From an uncultured Chloroflexota bacterium (GTDB taxonomy: Bacteria > Chloroflexota > Dehalococcoidia > UBA3495): 9,892 nt of DNA. The notes beneath the pieces are model-generated. The model ran no database searches, had not been told where the DNA came from, and saw nothing but the letters and a program-made list of their open reading frames with translations. The position numbers were made by a program, and so were the translations under genes. The stretch is taken from positions 1-9,892 of the forward strand of contig CAJWBT010000060.1 in assembly GCA_913020235.1 (NCBI GenBank). Direction: 5' to 3'. How positions within the stretch are numbered: position 1 is the stretch's first letter; every line of letters begins with the position of its first letter. Positions 1 to 8,554 of the stretch are shown here, piece after piece.

Positions 1-1080
1 GTCGAACATGCCGAAGGCGCTGTCTTTGTCCATGAACTGGAAATCGGCCCCGCCCATGGCACCGGCCGCGTCGAATAGCTGGCCGGCGTCGAATCCGGCT
101 ACCTGGTCGTGGTCCATGGCACCGAACATGCCGGCCAGGTTCTCCCCGCCCATGCCGAGGGCCTGGTCAAAGCCCATGCTATCGAAGGCTTGGAACACCT
201 GGTCTTTGCTCATATCGTGGTAGGCGTTGGGGTCCATGGCGCCGAACATGCCGGCAAGCTGATCCCCGCCCAGGTCCAAGGCTTGGTCGAAGCCCATGGT
301 GTCGAACATGCCGAAGGCGCTGTCCTTGTCCATGAACTGGAAGTCGGCGCCGGTCATGGCTCCGGCCGCGTCGAAGAGTTGGTTGGGGTCGAACCCCGCT
401 ATCTGGCGGTCGTCCATGGCGCCGAACATGCCGGCCAGGCTGTCGCCACCCAGGTCCAAGGCCTGGTCGAAGCCCATCTGGTCGAACATGCCGAAGGCGC
501 TGTCCTTGTCCATGAACTCGAAGCCTGCCCCGCCCATGGCTCCGGCCGCGTCGAAGAGCTGGGTGCCGCCCAGGTCCTGGAAGTGGTCCGGGCCCATGGT
601 GTCGAACATGCCCGCCAGGGCGCCGCCATCCATGCCGAAGGCCTGGTCGGCCCCCATGGAGTTGAACGCCTCGAAGACCTGGTCGCTGCCCATATCCTGG
701 AATTGATCCTGGCCCATGGCGCCGAACATACCGGCAAGCTGATCCCCGCCCAGGTCCATGGCCTTGTCAAATCCCATGGTATCGAACATGCCAAAAGCCT
801 GGTCGCCGGCCATACCGGAGAAGTCATTGAACCCCATATTTCCGACGGCGTCGAATAGACCGTCGCCGCCGATCTCGACGAAGTTGGCCCGGTCCATCAC
901 GTCGAACATGCCGGCCATCTGGCCGCCGTCCAGGTCGGTGAACTGGCCGGGGTCCATGGCCTGGTACATATCGAAGACGGCGTCCCCGCCCAGGTCGTGG
1001 AAGCCCCGCTGGTCCAGGTCCCCGGCAAGGTCAAAGGTGAAGTCGCCGCCAAGGTCCTTGAAGTCCCCGGGCGCGAATTC
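1..1080 (-). repeat. Tandem array of 18 x 60-bp coding repeats with nested higher-order duplication
   Basis: Counting back from 1080, every 60 bp encodes one 20-residue unit with no length change across 18 units. Three unit flavours recur, ending ...LAGMFGAM, ...LFDAAGAM and ...AFGMFDTM. Their order is 3-2-3 then 3-2-3, giving a larger period of 8 units (480 bp): units 4-8 of the first block match units 12-16 of the second closely. Shorter 3-unit and 5-unit near-copies are also visible; for example the 60-bp blocks beginning at 1, 301 and 481 share nearly the same first 40 bases. The array continues past the left edge. Confidence 0.9.
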
Positions 1081-1653
1081 CGAAGCCGTGGAGAACGCAT
1101 CCAGCGCGCCGTCCGTCCGGACTTCGAAGGTGAAGCCGCCTTCGGGGACATCGCCGCCCTGGAAATCCACCAGGTCGCCGGTGTTCGGGTCGAAGAACTG
1201 AACCGAGCTGAAATCTACGGCCTCGCCCGTGCCAGGGTCGAAGCTCCCATCTTTGAAAGAGTCGTCGAAGGTCCCGCCCGCATTGGGGTCGAAGGTCCCT
1301 CCGCCATCACTCGCGCTGGGGTCGTGGATCGCCCCACCGTCGGGAGGCGGCGCGCCATCGGGAGGCGGTGCGCCATCGGGAGGCGGTGCGCCATCGGGAG
1401 GCGGCTCGCCATCCTTGCTTCCGTCGTCGGGAGGCGGTGAGCCATCGGGAGGCGGCGCATCGTGGGTACCACCGTCGGGAGGCGGAGGTGGAGGATCATC
1501 CGGAGGTGGAGGCGGAGGATCGTCCGGAGGCGGCGAGCCGCCTCCGTCGTGTTCGTGCGCATACACCGAGGTGACGGGCGCGGAGTCCCAAGGGAAAACC
1601 ACCAGGCCCGTCAACATTAGCAGAACGGCCAAAATCCTGACCACACGTAACAT
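1..1653 (-). CDS. Secreted 20-residue-repeat protein (N-terminal part, runs off left edge)
   Basis: The frame is open from an ATG at 1653 to position 1 without a stop (551 codons), so the C-terminus lies outside the window. A ribosome site AGGTGG (1660-1665) sits 6 nt before the ATG. Residues 1-32 look like a Sec signal peptide: Arg3 and Arg6, a hydrophobic stretch 7-20, and a likely cut after Val-Tyr-Ala32. Residues 40-107 are a Pro/Asp/Gly linker with repeated APPPDG. Residues 108-191 are Asp/Phe/Gly-rich with no recognised fold. From residue 192 there are 18 units of exactly 20 residues, roughly x-D-Q-A-x-D-L-G-G-D-Q-L-A-G-M-F-G-A-M-D/G, rich in Asp, Met and Phe and very acidic. The protein is probably exported to the cell surface or medium. 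I do not recognise the family. An extracellular scaffold, adhesin or ion-binding role is only inference. Long frames on the opposite strand are shadows of the 60-bp repeats. Confidence 0.85.
   Translation of the reverse strand, partial: MLRVVRILAVLLMLTGLVVFPWDSAPVTSVYAHEHDGGGSPPPDDPPPPPPDDPPPPPPDGGTHDAPPPDGSPPPDDGSKDGEPPPDGAPPPDGAPPPDGAPPPDGGAIHDPSASDGGGTFDPNAGGTFDDSFKDGSFDPGTGEAVDFSSVQFFDPNTGDLVDFQGGDVPEGGFTFEVRTDGALDAFSTASEFAPGDFKDLGGDFTFDLAGDLDQRGFHDLGGDAVFDMYQAMDPGQFTDLDGGQMAGMFDVMDRANFVEIGGDGLFDAVGNMGFNDFSGMAGDQAFGMFDTMGFDKAMDLGGDQLAGMFGAMGQDQFQDMGSDQVFEAFNSMGADQAFGMDGGALAGMFDTMGPDHFQDLGGTQLFDAAGAMGGAGFEFMDKDSAFGMFDQMGFDQALDLGGDSLAGMFGAMDDRQIAGFDPNQLFDAAGAMTGADFQFMDKDSAFGMFDTMGFDQALDLGGDQLAGMFGAMDPNAYHDMSKDQVFQAFDSMGFDQALGMGGENLAGMFGAMDHDQVAGFDAGQLFDAAGAMGGADFQFMDKDSAFGMFD
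1333..1536 (-). repeat. Low-complexity Pro/Asp/Gly linker with 18-bp APPPDG repeats
   Basis: Residues 40-107 of the repeat protein. Four near-identical 18-bp units encode E/A-P-P-P-D-G at 1336-1407. Further PPPDD and PPPPPPDD blocks lie nearer the signal peptide. Such stretches are extended and unstructured, and would hold the repeat domain away from the secretion or attachment point. Confidence 0.8.
1558..1653 (-). other. Sec-type signal peptide of the repeat protein
   Basis: Residues 1-32 of the minus-strand protein. The n-region has Arg3 and Arg6. The h-region ILAVLLMLTGLVVF (7-20) is strongly hydrophobic. The c-region ends in Val-Tyr-Ala, a good -3/-1 pattern for signal peptidase I. There is no Cys lipobox, so a lipoprotein is unlikely. 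Confidence 0.7.
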
Positions 1654-3176: not shown

Positions 3177-4364
3177 ATGAAAGCGCTTGAAGGGATACGG
3201 GTGCTCGATTTGACTCGGGCTTTGGCGGGCCCGTTCTGCACCCTGATGCTGGGGGACTACGGGGCGGACGTGATCAAGATCGAGCTTCCCGGCTTGGGGG
3301 ACGACACCCGGCATTGGGGTCCGCCCTTCATCGGCGAGGAGAGCGCTTACTTTCTTTCCATCAACCGCAACAAACGGAGCCTGACCCTGAACTTCAAGGA
3401 GCCCCAGGCGAAAGAGATCTTCCTCCGGCTGGCCCAAAGGGCCGACGTGGTGGTGGAGAACTTCACCCCCGGAGTGATGTCCCGGTTCGGCCTGGACTAT
3501 GAAACGGTGAAGGGGACCAATCCCAAGATTATCTACTGCTCGATCTCCGGTTTCGGACAGGACGGGCCCTACCGGAACCGTCCGGCCTACGACCAGATAA
3601 TGCAGGGAATCGGCGGCATCATGAGCGTCACCGGCGGGCCCGACGACGATCCGCAAAAGGTTGGGATCGCCATAGCCGACATCGGGGCCGGAATGTGGGC
3701 CGCTTTCGCGATTTTGGCCGCGGTTCGACACCGGGACCAACAGGGTGAAGGCCAGTACATCGACGTCTCCATGATGGATGCCCAGGTGGCCTGGCTGACC
3801 TACCAGGCGGGCTATTTCTTCGCCAACGGAGAGCCGCCCAAGCGTTTGGGGGCCGCACATCCCAACCTGGTTCCCTACCAGGCATTCATGTGCGGCGACG
3901 GCAAGTACCTCAACGTGGCCGTGGGCTCCGAGCGTATCTGGCAGCGGTTCTGCCAAGGCATGGGGCTGGAAGACCTGCATGACAGCCCGGACTATGCCAC
4001 CAACGGCGACCGGGTGCGTAACCGGGCTGCGCTGGTGCCCAAGCTGCAGGAGCTGTTCCTGACCCAGTCGAGCGCGGAGTGGGTGGACGCTCTCATGCCT
4101 TCCGGTGTCCCCTGCGGCCCCATCAACGACCTGGCGGACGTTTTCTCCGACCCCCAGCTTCTCCACCGCCAGATGTACCTGGAGATGCCCCATCCTACCC
4201 TAGGGTCCGTTAAACAGACGGGCATTCCCATCAAGTTCTCCCAGACCCCCGGTGGCCTGGACCGGCCTCCGCCCCTGTTGGGCGAGCACACCAGGGAGAT
4301 CCTGCGGGAGCTGGAATACTCGGAGTCCCAGATCGACGAGATGGCTGAAAAGTCGGTGACCTAG
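3177..4364 (+). CDS. CaiB/BaiF (family III) CoA-transferase
   Basis: 395 residues, the usual family length. It moves CoA from an acyl-CoA donor to a carboxylic acid through enzyme-bound anhydride intermediates. The start MKALEGIRVLDLTRALAGPF is typical of the family, and AGGAG (3161-3165) lies 11 nt upstream; the frame is open to 3138, but that extension has no family match. Further family signatures are LGDYGADVIKIE (25-36), NRNKRSLTLNFK (63-74), VVENFTPGVMSRFGLDY (92-108), CSISGFGQDGPYRNRPAYD (121-139) and VGIAIADIGAGM (162-173). Asp168 falls where the catalytic Asp of formyl-CoA transferase sits. The C-terminal part has the usual PCGPINDLADVF block. It is cytoplasmic and acts as an interlocked dimer in the family. 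The substrate cannot be told from sequence. An SDR-fold gene follows on the same strand after 316 bp. Confidence 0.95.
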   Translation: MKALEGIRVLDLTRALAGPFCTLMLGDYGADVIKIELPGLGDDTRHWGPPFIGEESAYFLSINRNKRSLTLNFKEPQAKEIFLRLAQRADVVVENFTPGVMSRFGLDYETVKGTNPKIIYCSISGFGQDGPYRNRPAYDQIMQGIGGIMSVTGGPDDDPQKVGIAIADIGAGMWAAFAILAAVRHRDQQGEGQYIDVSMMDAQVAWLTYQAGYFFANGEPPKRLGAAHPNLVPYQAFMCGDGKYLNVAVGSERIWQRFCQGMGLEDLHDSPDYATNGDRVRNRAALVPKLQELFLTQSSAEWVDALMPSGVPCGPINDLADVFSDPQLLHRQMYLEMPHPTLGSVKQTGIPIKFSQTPGGLDRPPPLLGEHTREILRELEYSESQIDEMAEKSVT

Positions 4365-4680: not shown

Positions 4681-5478
4681 ATGGACCTTGGACTGAAAGA
4701 CCGCGTGGCTATCGTGGGAGGCTCTTCCAGGGGTATGGGGCGGGCAATCGCGGTGGCCTTTGCCCAAGAGGGCGCCAGCGTCACCATCTCCGCCCGCACC
4801 GAGGCCGACCTGCGCCGCACTGAGATCGAGTTGGCCCGGATCGGTTCGCAACATCACGTGCTGGCCATCCCCGCCGATCTGTCGGTGCCCAGGGACATCC
4901 GCCGGGTGGTGCGAGACACTTTCAACCGCTTCGGCCAGATCGGAATCCTGGTGACCCACGTGGGGCACGGACCTCCCGGCCGGCCCTCCGAGTTCAACGA
5001 CGAAACCATTTTGGCGGCGCTGGAAGAGAACTTTCTCAGCGCTATCCGCCTCGCCAGGGAAGTGATTCCCTACATGAAGCAGCAGCGATGGGGGCGCATC
5101 ATCCACCTGCTGCACAGCCCGGTGGACCGCCCGGACAACGGGGCGGCCCTCTCCGCCGCCAGCCAATCGGCGCTGATGGGCTACTCCAAGCTGCTTTCCA
5201 ACGAACTGGCCCCGTTCAACATTACCGTCAACAACCTGCTTTCCGGTCCCATCCAGACCGATTACCTGACCGCCGCGTTGGAGGCCAGGGCCAAGGAGAA
5301 TGGCCGCACGGCTGAGGACCTGGCCAAGGAAGCGGTAGCCGCCATCCCCATGCGTCGCTTCGGCAAGCCCGAGGAGGTGGGAGACCTGGTCGCATTTCTG
5401 GCGTCGGACCGGGCCGGGTACCTCACCGGTACCAGCGTGGTCCTCGACGGCGGCAGGACCCAGCCCTTCAGCCGCTAA
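4681..5478 (+). CDS. SDR-fold protein with degenerate active site
   Basis: 265 residues, normal for a classical short-chain dehydrogenase/reductase. AGGAGG (4665-4670) lies 10 nt upstream of the ATG. The Rossmann N-terminus is recognisable: VAIVGGSSRGMGRAIA (9-24), with Gly in place of the usual Thr of TGxxxGxG. ADLS (65-68) is the adenine-pocket Asp region. The NNAG motif is replaced by THVG (92-95). The helix-4 Asn is present (Asn117) and Ser146 is kept, but where Y-x3-K is expected the sequence is ALSAASQSALMGYS: Ser158 and Gln162 align with the catalytic Tyr and Lys. The end, YLTGTSVVLDGG, is typical. It likely binds a nucleotide but may not be an ordinary oxidoreductase. The upstream CoA-transferase suggests a shared metabolic setting, which is inference. 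Confidence 0.9.
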   Translation: MDLGLKDRVAIVGGSSRGMGRAIAVAFAQEGASVTISARTEADLRRTEIELARIGSQHHVLAIPADLSVPRDIRRVVRDTFNRFGQIGILVTHVGHGPPGRPSEFNDETILAALEENFLSAIRLAREVIPYMKQQRWGRIIHLLHSPVDRPDNGAALSAASQSALMGYSKLLSNELAPFNITVNNLLSGPIQTDYLTAALEARAKENGRTAEDLAKEAVAAIPMRRFGKPEEVGDLVAFLASDRAGYLTGTSVVLDGGRTQPFSR

Positions 5479-5602
5479 GTCCGAACCAGCCCCTCCAGCC
5501 GGCCCCCAACGATCCCCTGCCGGGCGAAGCCGTCTATCACGTCTATATGCAAGATACATGGGCGAGCGGATTTTCCCCGTTCGTGGTTAGCTCCGATTCA
5601 AC

Positions 5603-5616
5603 CCCGACGCGTCGGG
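5603..5616. repeat. Perfect 14-bp palindrome
   Basis: CCCGACGCGTCGGG is fully self-complementary. It lies in the non-coding gap after the SDR gene and 76 bp before the larger inverted-repeat element. It could be another short dispersed palindrome or a binding site. Confidence 0.45.
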
Positions 5617-5672
5617 ACGAAGCCGGACCTGTCTAACCGTAGTGGCTGGTGATTGGATCGGCTCTAGCGACA

Positions 5673-5788
5673 AGTCAACCTGAAATTGATAGATGTCATT
5701 CTGAGCAAAGCGAAGAATCTCGTTGTTACGCTGAGATTCCTCGTCGCTCCGCTCCTCAGAATGACATCCTGTTAAAACCAAGTTGACT
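5673..5788. mobile_element. MITE-like palindromic intergenic repeat
   Basis: GATGTCATTCTGAG (5692-5705) and CTCAGAATGACATC (5755-5768) are perfect 14-bp inverted arms. Inside them GAATCTC (5715-5721) pairs with GAGATTC (5733-5739), and the intervening GCGA/TCGC tracts also pair imperfectly, so almost the whole segment can fold on itself. AGTCAAC (5673-5679) and GTTGACT (5782-5788) add outer inverted ends. The core belongs to a very widespread repeat that is often mistranslated as 'HSEERSDEES...FAQND'; that false peptide is readable here on the minus strand. There is no transposase, so it is non-autonomous. Confidence 0.75.
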
Positions 5789-5985
5789 GAGTTCGAGGTG
5801 TGTTTGCACGATAGATTTGACCGGCGATCCCCGTGCCTCCAAGAGCCCCTGCCCGTGCCGGCATCCTTCCTGACCGGAGGCCCTTCAGCCGGGTTCTCCA
5901 ATCAAGAGGGCAGGCTTCCGGGCATCGTCGCGCCGCTACGGCCCGGTGCCGTGCCTCCGAGGTGACGGCCAAAGTCCCGAAGCGG

Positions 5986-7813: not shown

Positions 7814-8554
7814 GTGCGTCGCGTCGCCTGGATCCCGGCCGCCCTATTCGTCGTTGCCGTTCCCCTATTCCTGGTGACCACCAGCGTTACCTGGGCGTTC
7901 AACAGCGCCGGCGCATACGAAAGGGGCTTCGAGAAGTACGGTGTTTCCGGCCTCACCGGCATCACCCGCGCGGACCTGGTCCAGGTGGCTGCTGACATCC
8001 GCCACTACTTCAACTCCCGAGAGGAGCCCATGGCGGTGCGGACCCGGATTTTCGGCGAAGAGAGGGACCTGTTCAACAGCCGGGAGGTCTCGCACATGCG
8101 GGACGTGAAGCGCCTGATCTGGGGAGTTTACATAATAGCGGCGCTATCCACCTTCTACTTGCTGGCCGCGGCTGGGCTTGGCCTGGCGCGGTACCGCCGC
8201 CGGTTCGCCGAAACCCTGGCGCGCCGCTGCCTCTGGGGTGGTGGAGTCACGCTGGCGTTGATACTGGCGGTGGGACTCTTCGCACTGGTGGGGTTCGACA
8301 GGCTGTTTCTGACGTTTCACCAGCTCAGCTTCTCGAACGATCTGTGGCAGTTGGACTGGCGGACGGACTACCTGGTGCGGCTGTTTCCCCAGAACTTTTG
8401 GTTCGACTCGACTATGTGGGTAGCTACCAGGGCCGTGGCCGGAGCGCTGGCCGTAACCGTCCTTTCCGGTGGCTACCTGCTGTATCTCCGCCGTGCCGCA
8501 CAAAAAGGGGTTCTGGCGCCGCGGGGCGAACTGAGTAAGACGCCGGGAATGTGA
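7814..8554 (+). CDS. TIGR01906/DUF1461 family integral membrane protein
   Basis: 246 residues starting at GTG, with GGAGG (7805-7809) 4 nt upstream. Four membrane segments are visible: about 5-29, 101-124, 138-161 and 201-225. Between the first two lies an extracytoplasmic loop with the conserved pattern GITRADLVQVAADIRHYFN (49-67) and FNSREVSHMRDVKRLIWGVY (87-106). The loop before the last helix carries FHQLSFSNDLWQLDWRTDYLVRLFPQNFWFD (168-198). These blocks match the family known as TIGR01906/DUF1461. No biochemical function is known to me. The C-terminal tail (226-246) is short and basic, then neutral. It is divergent from mazG and convergent with the zinc-ribbon gene downstream. Confidence 0.88.
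   Translation: MRRVAWIPAALFVVAVPLFLVTTSVTWAFNSAGAYERGFEKYGVSGLTGITRADLVQVAADIRHYFNSREEPMAVRTRIFGEERDLFNSREVSHMRDVKRLIWGVYIIAALSTFYLLAAAGLGLARYRRRFAETLARRCLWGGGVTLALILAVGLFALVGFDRLFLTFHQLSFSNDLWQLDWRTDYLVRLFPQNFWFDSTMWVATRAVAGALAVTVLSGGYLLYLRRAAQKGVLAPRGELSKTPGM

Follow-up and report, generated by a model that had tools for sequence, protein, structure and literature searches.

The 9,892-nucleotide contig CAJWBT010000060.1 of an uncultured Chloroflexota bacterium, which we analyzed over its whole length and refer to as the window, begins with a gene for a predicted exported protein made of 20-residue repeats. Related genes occur in SAR202-type Chloroflexota, and what is new here is that in these relatives the repeat gene is the second of a pair, positioned behind the gene of a probably membrane-anchored lipoprotein. 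Members of SAR202 occur in large numbers in the dark ocean, most of them have not been cultured, and what they display at their surface is poorly characterised. The parts of the repeat gene in the window are as follows:

1..1653, minus strand: exported (as predicted) 20-residue-repeat protein, start ATG at 1653, gene end outside the window; relatives P0001 and P0012
1558..1653, minus strand: predicted signal peptide, residues 1-32, ending V-Y-A, read by eye
1054..1557, minus strand: low-complexity Pro/Asp/Gly linker and Asp/Phe/Gly-rich lead-in, residues 33-200, from the sequence
34..1053, minus strand: 17 complete 20-residue units, residues 201-540, a predicted alpha-solenoid, from the unit profile and AlphaFold2
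1..33, minus strand: opening 11 residues of an 18th unit, cut at the window edge, from the sequence

From its ATG, which has AGGTGG located 6 nt before it, the minus frame is free of stops for 551 codons up to the window edge, where its 3' end is open, exactly as described in the initial annotation of this stretch. Over the repeats, the G+C content by codon position is 0.67/0.38/0.88 in this frame, on which basis we took the minus strand as coding and rejected the plus-strand frames over the repeats, as shadows rather than genes. The linker DNA contains 18-, 51- and 24-bp arrays within 1340-1533. Both the signal peptide and the Pro/Asp/Gly linker of the earlier description were found again; the former, read by eye in the window and in the relatives, predicts export, and it is for export only that the sequence speaks. 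The gene is real, with relatives found both in a protein search and in SAR202-type Chloroflexota.

Applying a unit profile to the window protein, we identified 17 complete units, for which 16/16 start-to-start spacings were exactly 20 residues, whereas 10 shuffles of the sequence gave a mean of 0.0 units (the training rows of the profile include four blocks of the window protein). The profile was built from family members, using 26 of 28 unit blocks after two L039 blocks were left out as out of register, and unit counts in those members are therefore not independent. Identity between window repeats was 27% at a lag of 20 residues, 38% at 40, 46% at 60 and 55% at 100, compared to approximately 11% in shuffles, such that units are constant in length but variable in sequence, with a 60/100-residue higher-order repeat also present. 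The initial claim of at least 18 exact repeats without insertion or deletion consequently holds for unit length and spacing, but not for unit sequence, nor for the 18th unit, of which the window includes only 11 residues. The protein is acidic (Asp 16.5%, Met 7.1%) and, as had been pointed out, contains hardly any Lys (1.5%) or Arg (1.1%; 2.6% combined). Hydrophobic residues recur at unit positions 1, 6, 9, 10, 13 and 18 in all six unit sets compared, despite very different surfaces, and at position 7 in five of the six, this position being polar in the draft genome G294 (all genomes given here by G numbers are drafts). Unit-to-unit nonsynonymous (dN) and synonymous (dS) substitutions (dN 0.41 and dS 0.69 at lag 100; dN/dS approximately 1.15 at lag 20 and 0.99 at lag 120) are only weak evidence.

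AlphaFold2, supplied with an alignment of 3 rows, predicted an alpha-solenoid with two short helices per unit and a predicted local distance difference test score (pLDDT) of about 90 over most units. Together with the recurrent hydrophobic positions, this model supports the stacked-helix solenoid that was initially suggested. Since the model had no Foldseek match at E<=1e-3 among solved structures, with only generic matches in the PDB, we claim no family for it. Sequence comparisons agree with the initial failure to name a repeat family: the window protein had no match over the curated cut-offs of Pfam, neither it nor P0012 matched NCBIfam up to E 0.1, and PDB sequences provided no match of weight. 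We took as chance the calpain chains among PDB sequences (E 0.5-1), a DUF2523 match to the window protein (E 0.33), a fulvocin-related match of L043 (26.6 of 35 bits) and a match of L043 to Phage_int_SAM_1, which slightly exceeded its cut-off (23.1 of 22.3 bits) with no stretch passing alone and which we ascribe to chance in a helical repeat.

A clear profile match to a known repeat family had been named in advance as a finding that would remove the novelty; none was found, and the two closest candidates did not hold. The ALTTAQ repeat (PF20080) is also a short bacterial repeat, and P0001 matched it below threshold (23.7 of 26.4 bits), but the window protein had no match up to E 10. Three putative ALTTAQ members that were fetched and aligned had an 8-residue period (L051, the frame of which has stops, was excluded), and after this comparison, with the cut-off not reached, membership was rejected. 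The MgtE N-domain (PF03448), a short helical superhelix, had sub-threshold matches to L037, L041 and L043 (14.8, 21.3 and 22.9 of 25.9 bits) but none to the window, and hhalign with nine members gave a probability of 12.5% (E 0.0023); in view of these scores we rejected this membership as well. Armadillo and HEAT alpha-solenoids are composed of helical units of approximately 40 residues, in contrast to the 20-residue unit of the window with its two short helices in the model, and the comparison did not place the protein among them.

We searched 5.8 billion proteins for relatives, with scoring restricted each time to the ~8000 candidates sharing most words, and obtained 7 matches when the query was the single sequence, a number that rose to 13 when an alignment was used. 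The closest complete relative, P0012 (1162 residues), has a signal peptide, a Gly/Asp linker, 37 scored units and a C-terminal cap, and P0001 (35 scored units) resembles it without the N-terminus; L036 has 43 scored units. The spacings listed for P0012 are 27 of 20 residues, five of 21 and a few others, showing that spacing is not always constant in relatives. In genome contigs, a first search with P0001 found no relative, and a second identified one locus, with two tandem copies, in a SAR202 cluster bacterium (Chloroflexota, Dehalococcoidia). Within the taxonomic family of that bacterium, 7/50 genomes matched with alignment A3 and 9/50 with alignment A2, the seven being included in the nine; at the order level, 22/250 matched with the unit profile at E<=1e-5, counting a weak match that looks unlike the others (L071, G815); at the class level, 3/393 matched with A2; and at the phylum level, only the genome from which the search started matched the unit profile at E<=1e-6 (1/400). 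One match, in G430, was partial. The repeat family is rare and centred on one order, with G082, a genome from the class-level search, probably outside it, being absent from the order's matches though its own units are in the profile.

Surfaces differ between members, the G294 form being Lys/Arg-rich and other forms Met-rich. In G082 the units are nearly identical (L045:1-931; per-20 identity 0.94), suggesting a recent expansion. We compared the C-termini of 21 of 26 repeat sequences, leaving out the window, L040a and L045 (cut or X-rich end), P0009 (unrelated stretch) and L040b, and found one Ala in all 21, an LF pair in 19 and a G following LF in 16. L040b has a stop and ends in an Ala-rich tail without LFG, and thus counts against a universal cap. 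Among 14 newly fetched repeat genes (L066-L079), 10 were cut by a contig end, implying that assemblies and gene catalogues probably under-represent the family.

In the relatives, the repeat gene is preceded, at a distance of a few tens of bases, by a gene for a lipoprotein, approximately 225-265 codons long from its putative starts. It lies directly upstream in 11 of the 12 repeat genes with the 5' end in hand, the exception being the window. These comprise a first set, in which all seven had the lipoprotein upstream (G001 twice, G420, G432 on contig C17, G294, G082 and G418, the last on contig C170 with the repeat N-terminus only), and new genomes for which the pairing was predicted beforehand, in which it was observed in all four that include the 5' end (G797, G810, G819 and G919). 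In G428, where the 5' end of the repeat gene is cut, a lipoprotein lies downstream. A reverse search detected 11 lipoprotein matches of at least 100 bits in 9/50 family genomes, while all 50 had some match at E<=1e-3, the weak ones listed covering mainly the lipoprotein signal and linker. Five of the 11 adjoin repeat coding sequence (G001 twice, G420, G432 C17 and G428), one (G418) adjoins a repeat N-terminus, and three (G432 C55, G426 and G427) adjoin a signal peptide and low-complexity linker that reaches the contig end. The last two of the 11 are in G438, next to a different exported protein, and in G435. In the latter (L050:7892-8580), the lipoprotein is interrupted by a stop, spread over more than one frame and continuous with the C-terminal tail of a repeat gene that has lost its units; this is a decayed, fused module.

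Of the candidates that were scored, 182 proved related to the lipoprotein at E<=1e-3. A model based on 52 sequences (2 of L001 and 50 of 120 listed matches) has block pLDDT values of 84-97 from residue 101 on, and this predicted outer domain matches CyanoP, PsbP, Apa, Mog1, LpqN, DcrB and SciW, assigning it, by prediction, to the Mog1/PsbP/DUF1795 fold. The likeness to members of that fold (CyanoP, Apa, LpqN, DcrB and the Eag chaperones SciW and EagT6) is one of predicted structure; identity is at most 16% among the matches listed, and none of eight lipoproteins matched any Pfam family of the fold at E<=1. PMC7773334 describes effector chaperones with this fold, but unlike the Eag chaperones, whose partner is a type VI effector, the lipoprotein has the repeat protein as its genetic partner.

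Genes next to the pair are also shared between the window and its relatives. Two of these were identified on the plus strand of the window:

3180..4364, plus strand: CoA-transferase family III (CaiB/BaiF type), PF02515, E 1e-139; divergent neighbour
4681..5478, plus strand: short-chain dehydrogenase (SDR), PF13561

The CoA-transferase is 72.4-75.6% identical to those in L001, L036, L047 and L050, and the SDR is 76.5-79.3% identical to those in L001, L036, L038, L046, L047 and L050. In the SAR202 cluster locus, the divergent CoA-transferase and SDR are 73% and 77% identical to those of the window, and we therefore consider the window to be the same locus in a related organism. The search for homologues in related genomes that was initially recommended found them in SAR202-type Chloroflexota, and several adjoin counterparts of the genes that neighbour the repeat gene in the window. 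Several relatives have two more genes near the repeat gene, one for a MarR regulator and one for a second SDR that shares 84-92% identity with its L001 counterpart (second SDR/MarR loci L039:8243-9040, L041:2501-3298, L050:6236-7051 and L001:12412-13209), and a weak polyketide-cyclase-like match lies near the pair (22 bits, under the cut-off of 27.4). The metabolic neighbours (CoA-transferase, SDRs, MarR and this weak match) fit published accounts of SAR202 catabolism (PMC5395668, PMC6306507).

The conserved pairing, combined with a fold that includes effector chaperones, points to a chaperone or anchor function of the lipoprotein towards the rod. Our proposed explanation, to which we assign a probability of roughly 45%, is that the repeat protein forms an acidic solenoid rod outside the cytoplasm, assisted by a lipoprotein that is fixed in the envelope and acts as chaperone or anchor, where the interaction, the envelope location and the binding role are parts that we infer. 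The signal peptide would take the repeat protein across the membrane, with a flexible low-complexity linker following, and the 20-residue units would stack, two short helices each, into an acidic alpha-solenoid rod that in relatives would be closed by a C-terminal cap, mostly ending near LFG. In those relatives the rod would be made from an operon-like pair together with the Mog1/PsbP/DUF1795-fold lipoprotein, which, most likely seated in the membrane by its lipid, would hold or chaperone the rod emerging from the translocon and retain it at the cell envelope, the rod possibly functioning there as a scaffold or in adhesion or binding. The genome of the window would presumably encode such a lipoprotein elsewhere. 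Directly observed are the reading frame, its period, the relatives, their gene pair and the neighbourhood they have in common with the window, and both folds come from model predictions. The initial interpretation of a rod displayed outside the cell, made with no view of the lipoprotein gene in the relatives, is, as a whole, partly supported.

Several observations weigh against this explanation. The window, when searched, held no such lipoprotein anywhere in its 9.9 kb, and one upstream of its repeat gene was thereby rejected; likewise, 10 of the 14 new genomes, those with a cut repeat gene, had no clear lipoprotein in the fetched stretch, L079 showing a weak 17-bit match. In G438 (L046:8118-9083) the gene after the lipoprotein encodes another kind of protein, apparently exported and with a linker of Gly runs, which matched neither the unit profile nor any Pfam family. 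We recognised no anchor within the repeat protein, so that its cellular location is no more than presumed, and knowing the fold of the lipoprotein is not enough to assign it a function. Lastly, the alignment behind the solenoid model had 3 rows, and AlphaFold2 can be overconfident on repeat sequences, as PMC11795689 shows for beta-solenoids.

This last point would also favour a disordered, matrix-forming protein for which the helical model is an artefact, as would the low-complexity linker and the high Gly and Asp content. Such disorder is hard to reconcile with a hydrophobic pattern kept at six positions across forms with unlike surfaces and with the invariant spacing of the window units, and we regard it as quite unlikely. 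The neighbouring genes raise another alternative, in which solenoid and lipoprotein capture substrates for a catabolic locus, binding hydrophobic or recalcitrant organics outside the cell and passing them to uptake, CoA-transferase and dehydrogenases. CoA-transferase, SDRs, the MarR regulator and the polyketide-cyclase-like gene flank the pair in several relatives; PMC5395668 reports that CaiB/BaiF transferases and SDRs abound in SAR202 genomes and interprets them as a means of using recalcitrant organic matter; and the PDB describes LpqN, whose fold the lipoprotein is predicted to share, as a lipid-binding protein. However, no such neighbours matched beside the pair in L042 and L043, L045 has only a 32%-identical CoA-transferase, and the hydrophobic residues fall in the predicted core. 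Because the metabolic neighbours are not constant beside the pair we gave this alternative lower weight, and we judge it unlikely.

Very unlikely, in our view, is a toxin-immunity pair, in which the exported protein would attack rivals and the lipoprotein would protect the producer in the manner of type VI immunity proteins of similar fold. The lipoprotein fold does match Tsi3, TplEi and Tli4, G001 carries tandem paralogous pairs, and the partner of the lipoprotein is swapped in G438, but Pfam scans gave no toxin family over cut-off (secretion-system genes were not searched for), and the C-terminus, rather than being polymorphic, is conserved in most of the 21 sequences. A Met-rich acidic protein binding copper or calcium at the cell surface is brought to mind by the Met content of the window protein and, more so, by that of the fragment L040a (23.3%, with a linker of MDMGG runs). 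Yet Met in the units is mostly at core positions, which in the G294 form are occupied by Phe, Val and Leu, and the window linker is built of Pro, Asp and Gly rather than Met, making metal binding highly improbable.

Returning to the rod and its lipoprotein, the pairing suggests an undescribed two-part cell-surface system, and we found no description of it in openly licensed literature on SAR202/Chloroflexota surface proteins, alpha-solenoids or ALTTAQ repeats. Somewhat short of even odds, we estimate, are the chances that this is a two-gene envelope system of SAR202-type Chloroflexota, so far undescribed, in which the Mog1/PsbP-fold lipoprotein helps to export, fold and anchor an acidic alpha-solenoid fibre of 20-residue units that surveys have missed; the fibre would have escaped them because assemblies break at its low-complexity gene and no profile recognises it. 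If conserved, such a pairing of lipoprotein and solenoid would offer an entry point to the SAR202 envelope. It would also add a solenoid scaffold with a new, short unit, and would extend partner binding outside type VI secretion to one more family of the Mog1/PsbP fold. The gene pairing makes the question of whether lipoprotein and repeat protein bind each other directly testable.

Three further features of the window were recorded. Between the repeat gene and the CoA-transferase, which is the place of the lipoprotein in several relatives, a 90-residue open reading frame (ORF; 2349-2621) contains two CxxC pairs, zinc-ribbon-like by eye, and has no Pfam match. At 7814-8554 lies Lit (PF07314, E 1.7e-32), a lipoprotein intramolecular transacylase. 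A 14-nt perfect inverted repeat with 49 nt between its arms (5692-5768) is located inside the minus-strand ORF 5587-5901, which reads HSEERSDEESQ...ILRFAQND, a sequence that we take to be a frequent translation of interspersed repeats.
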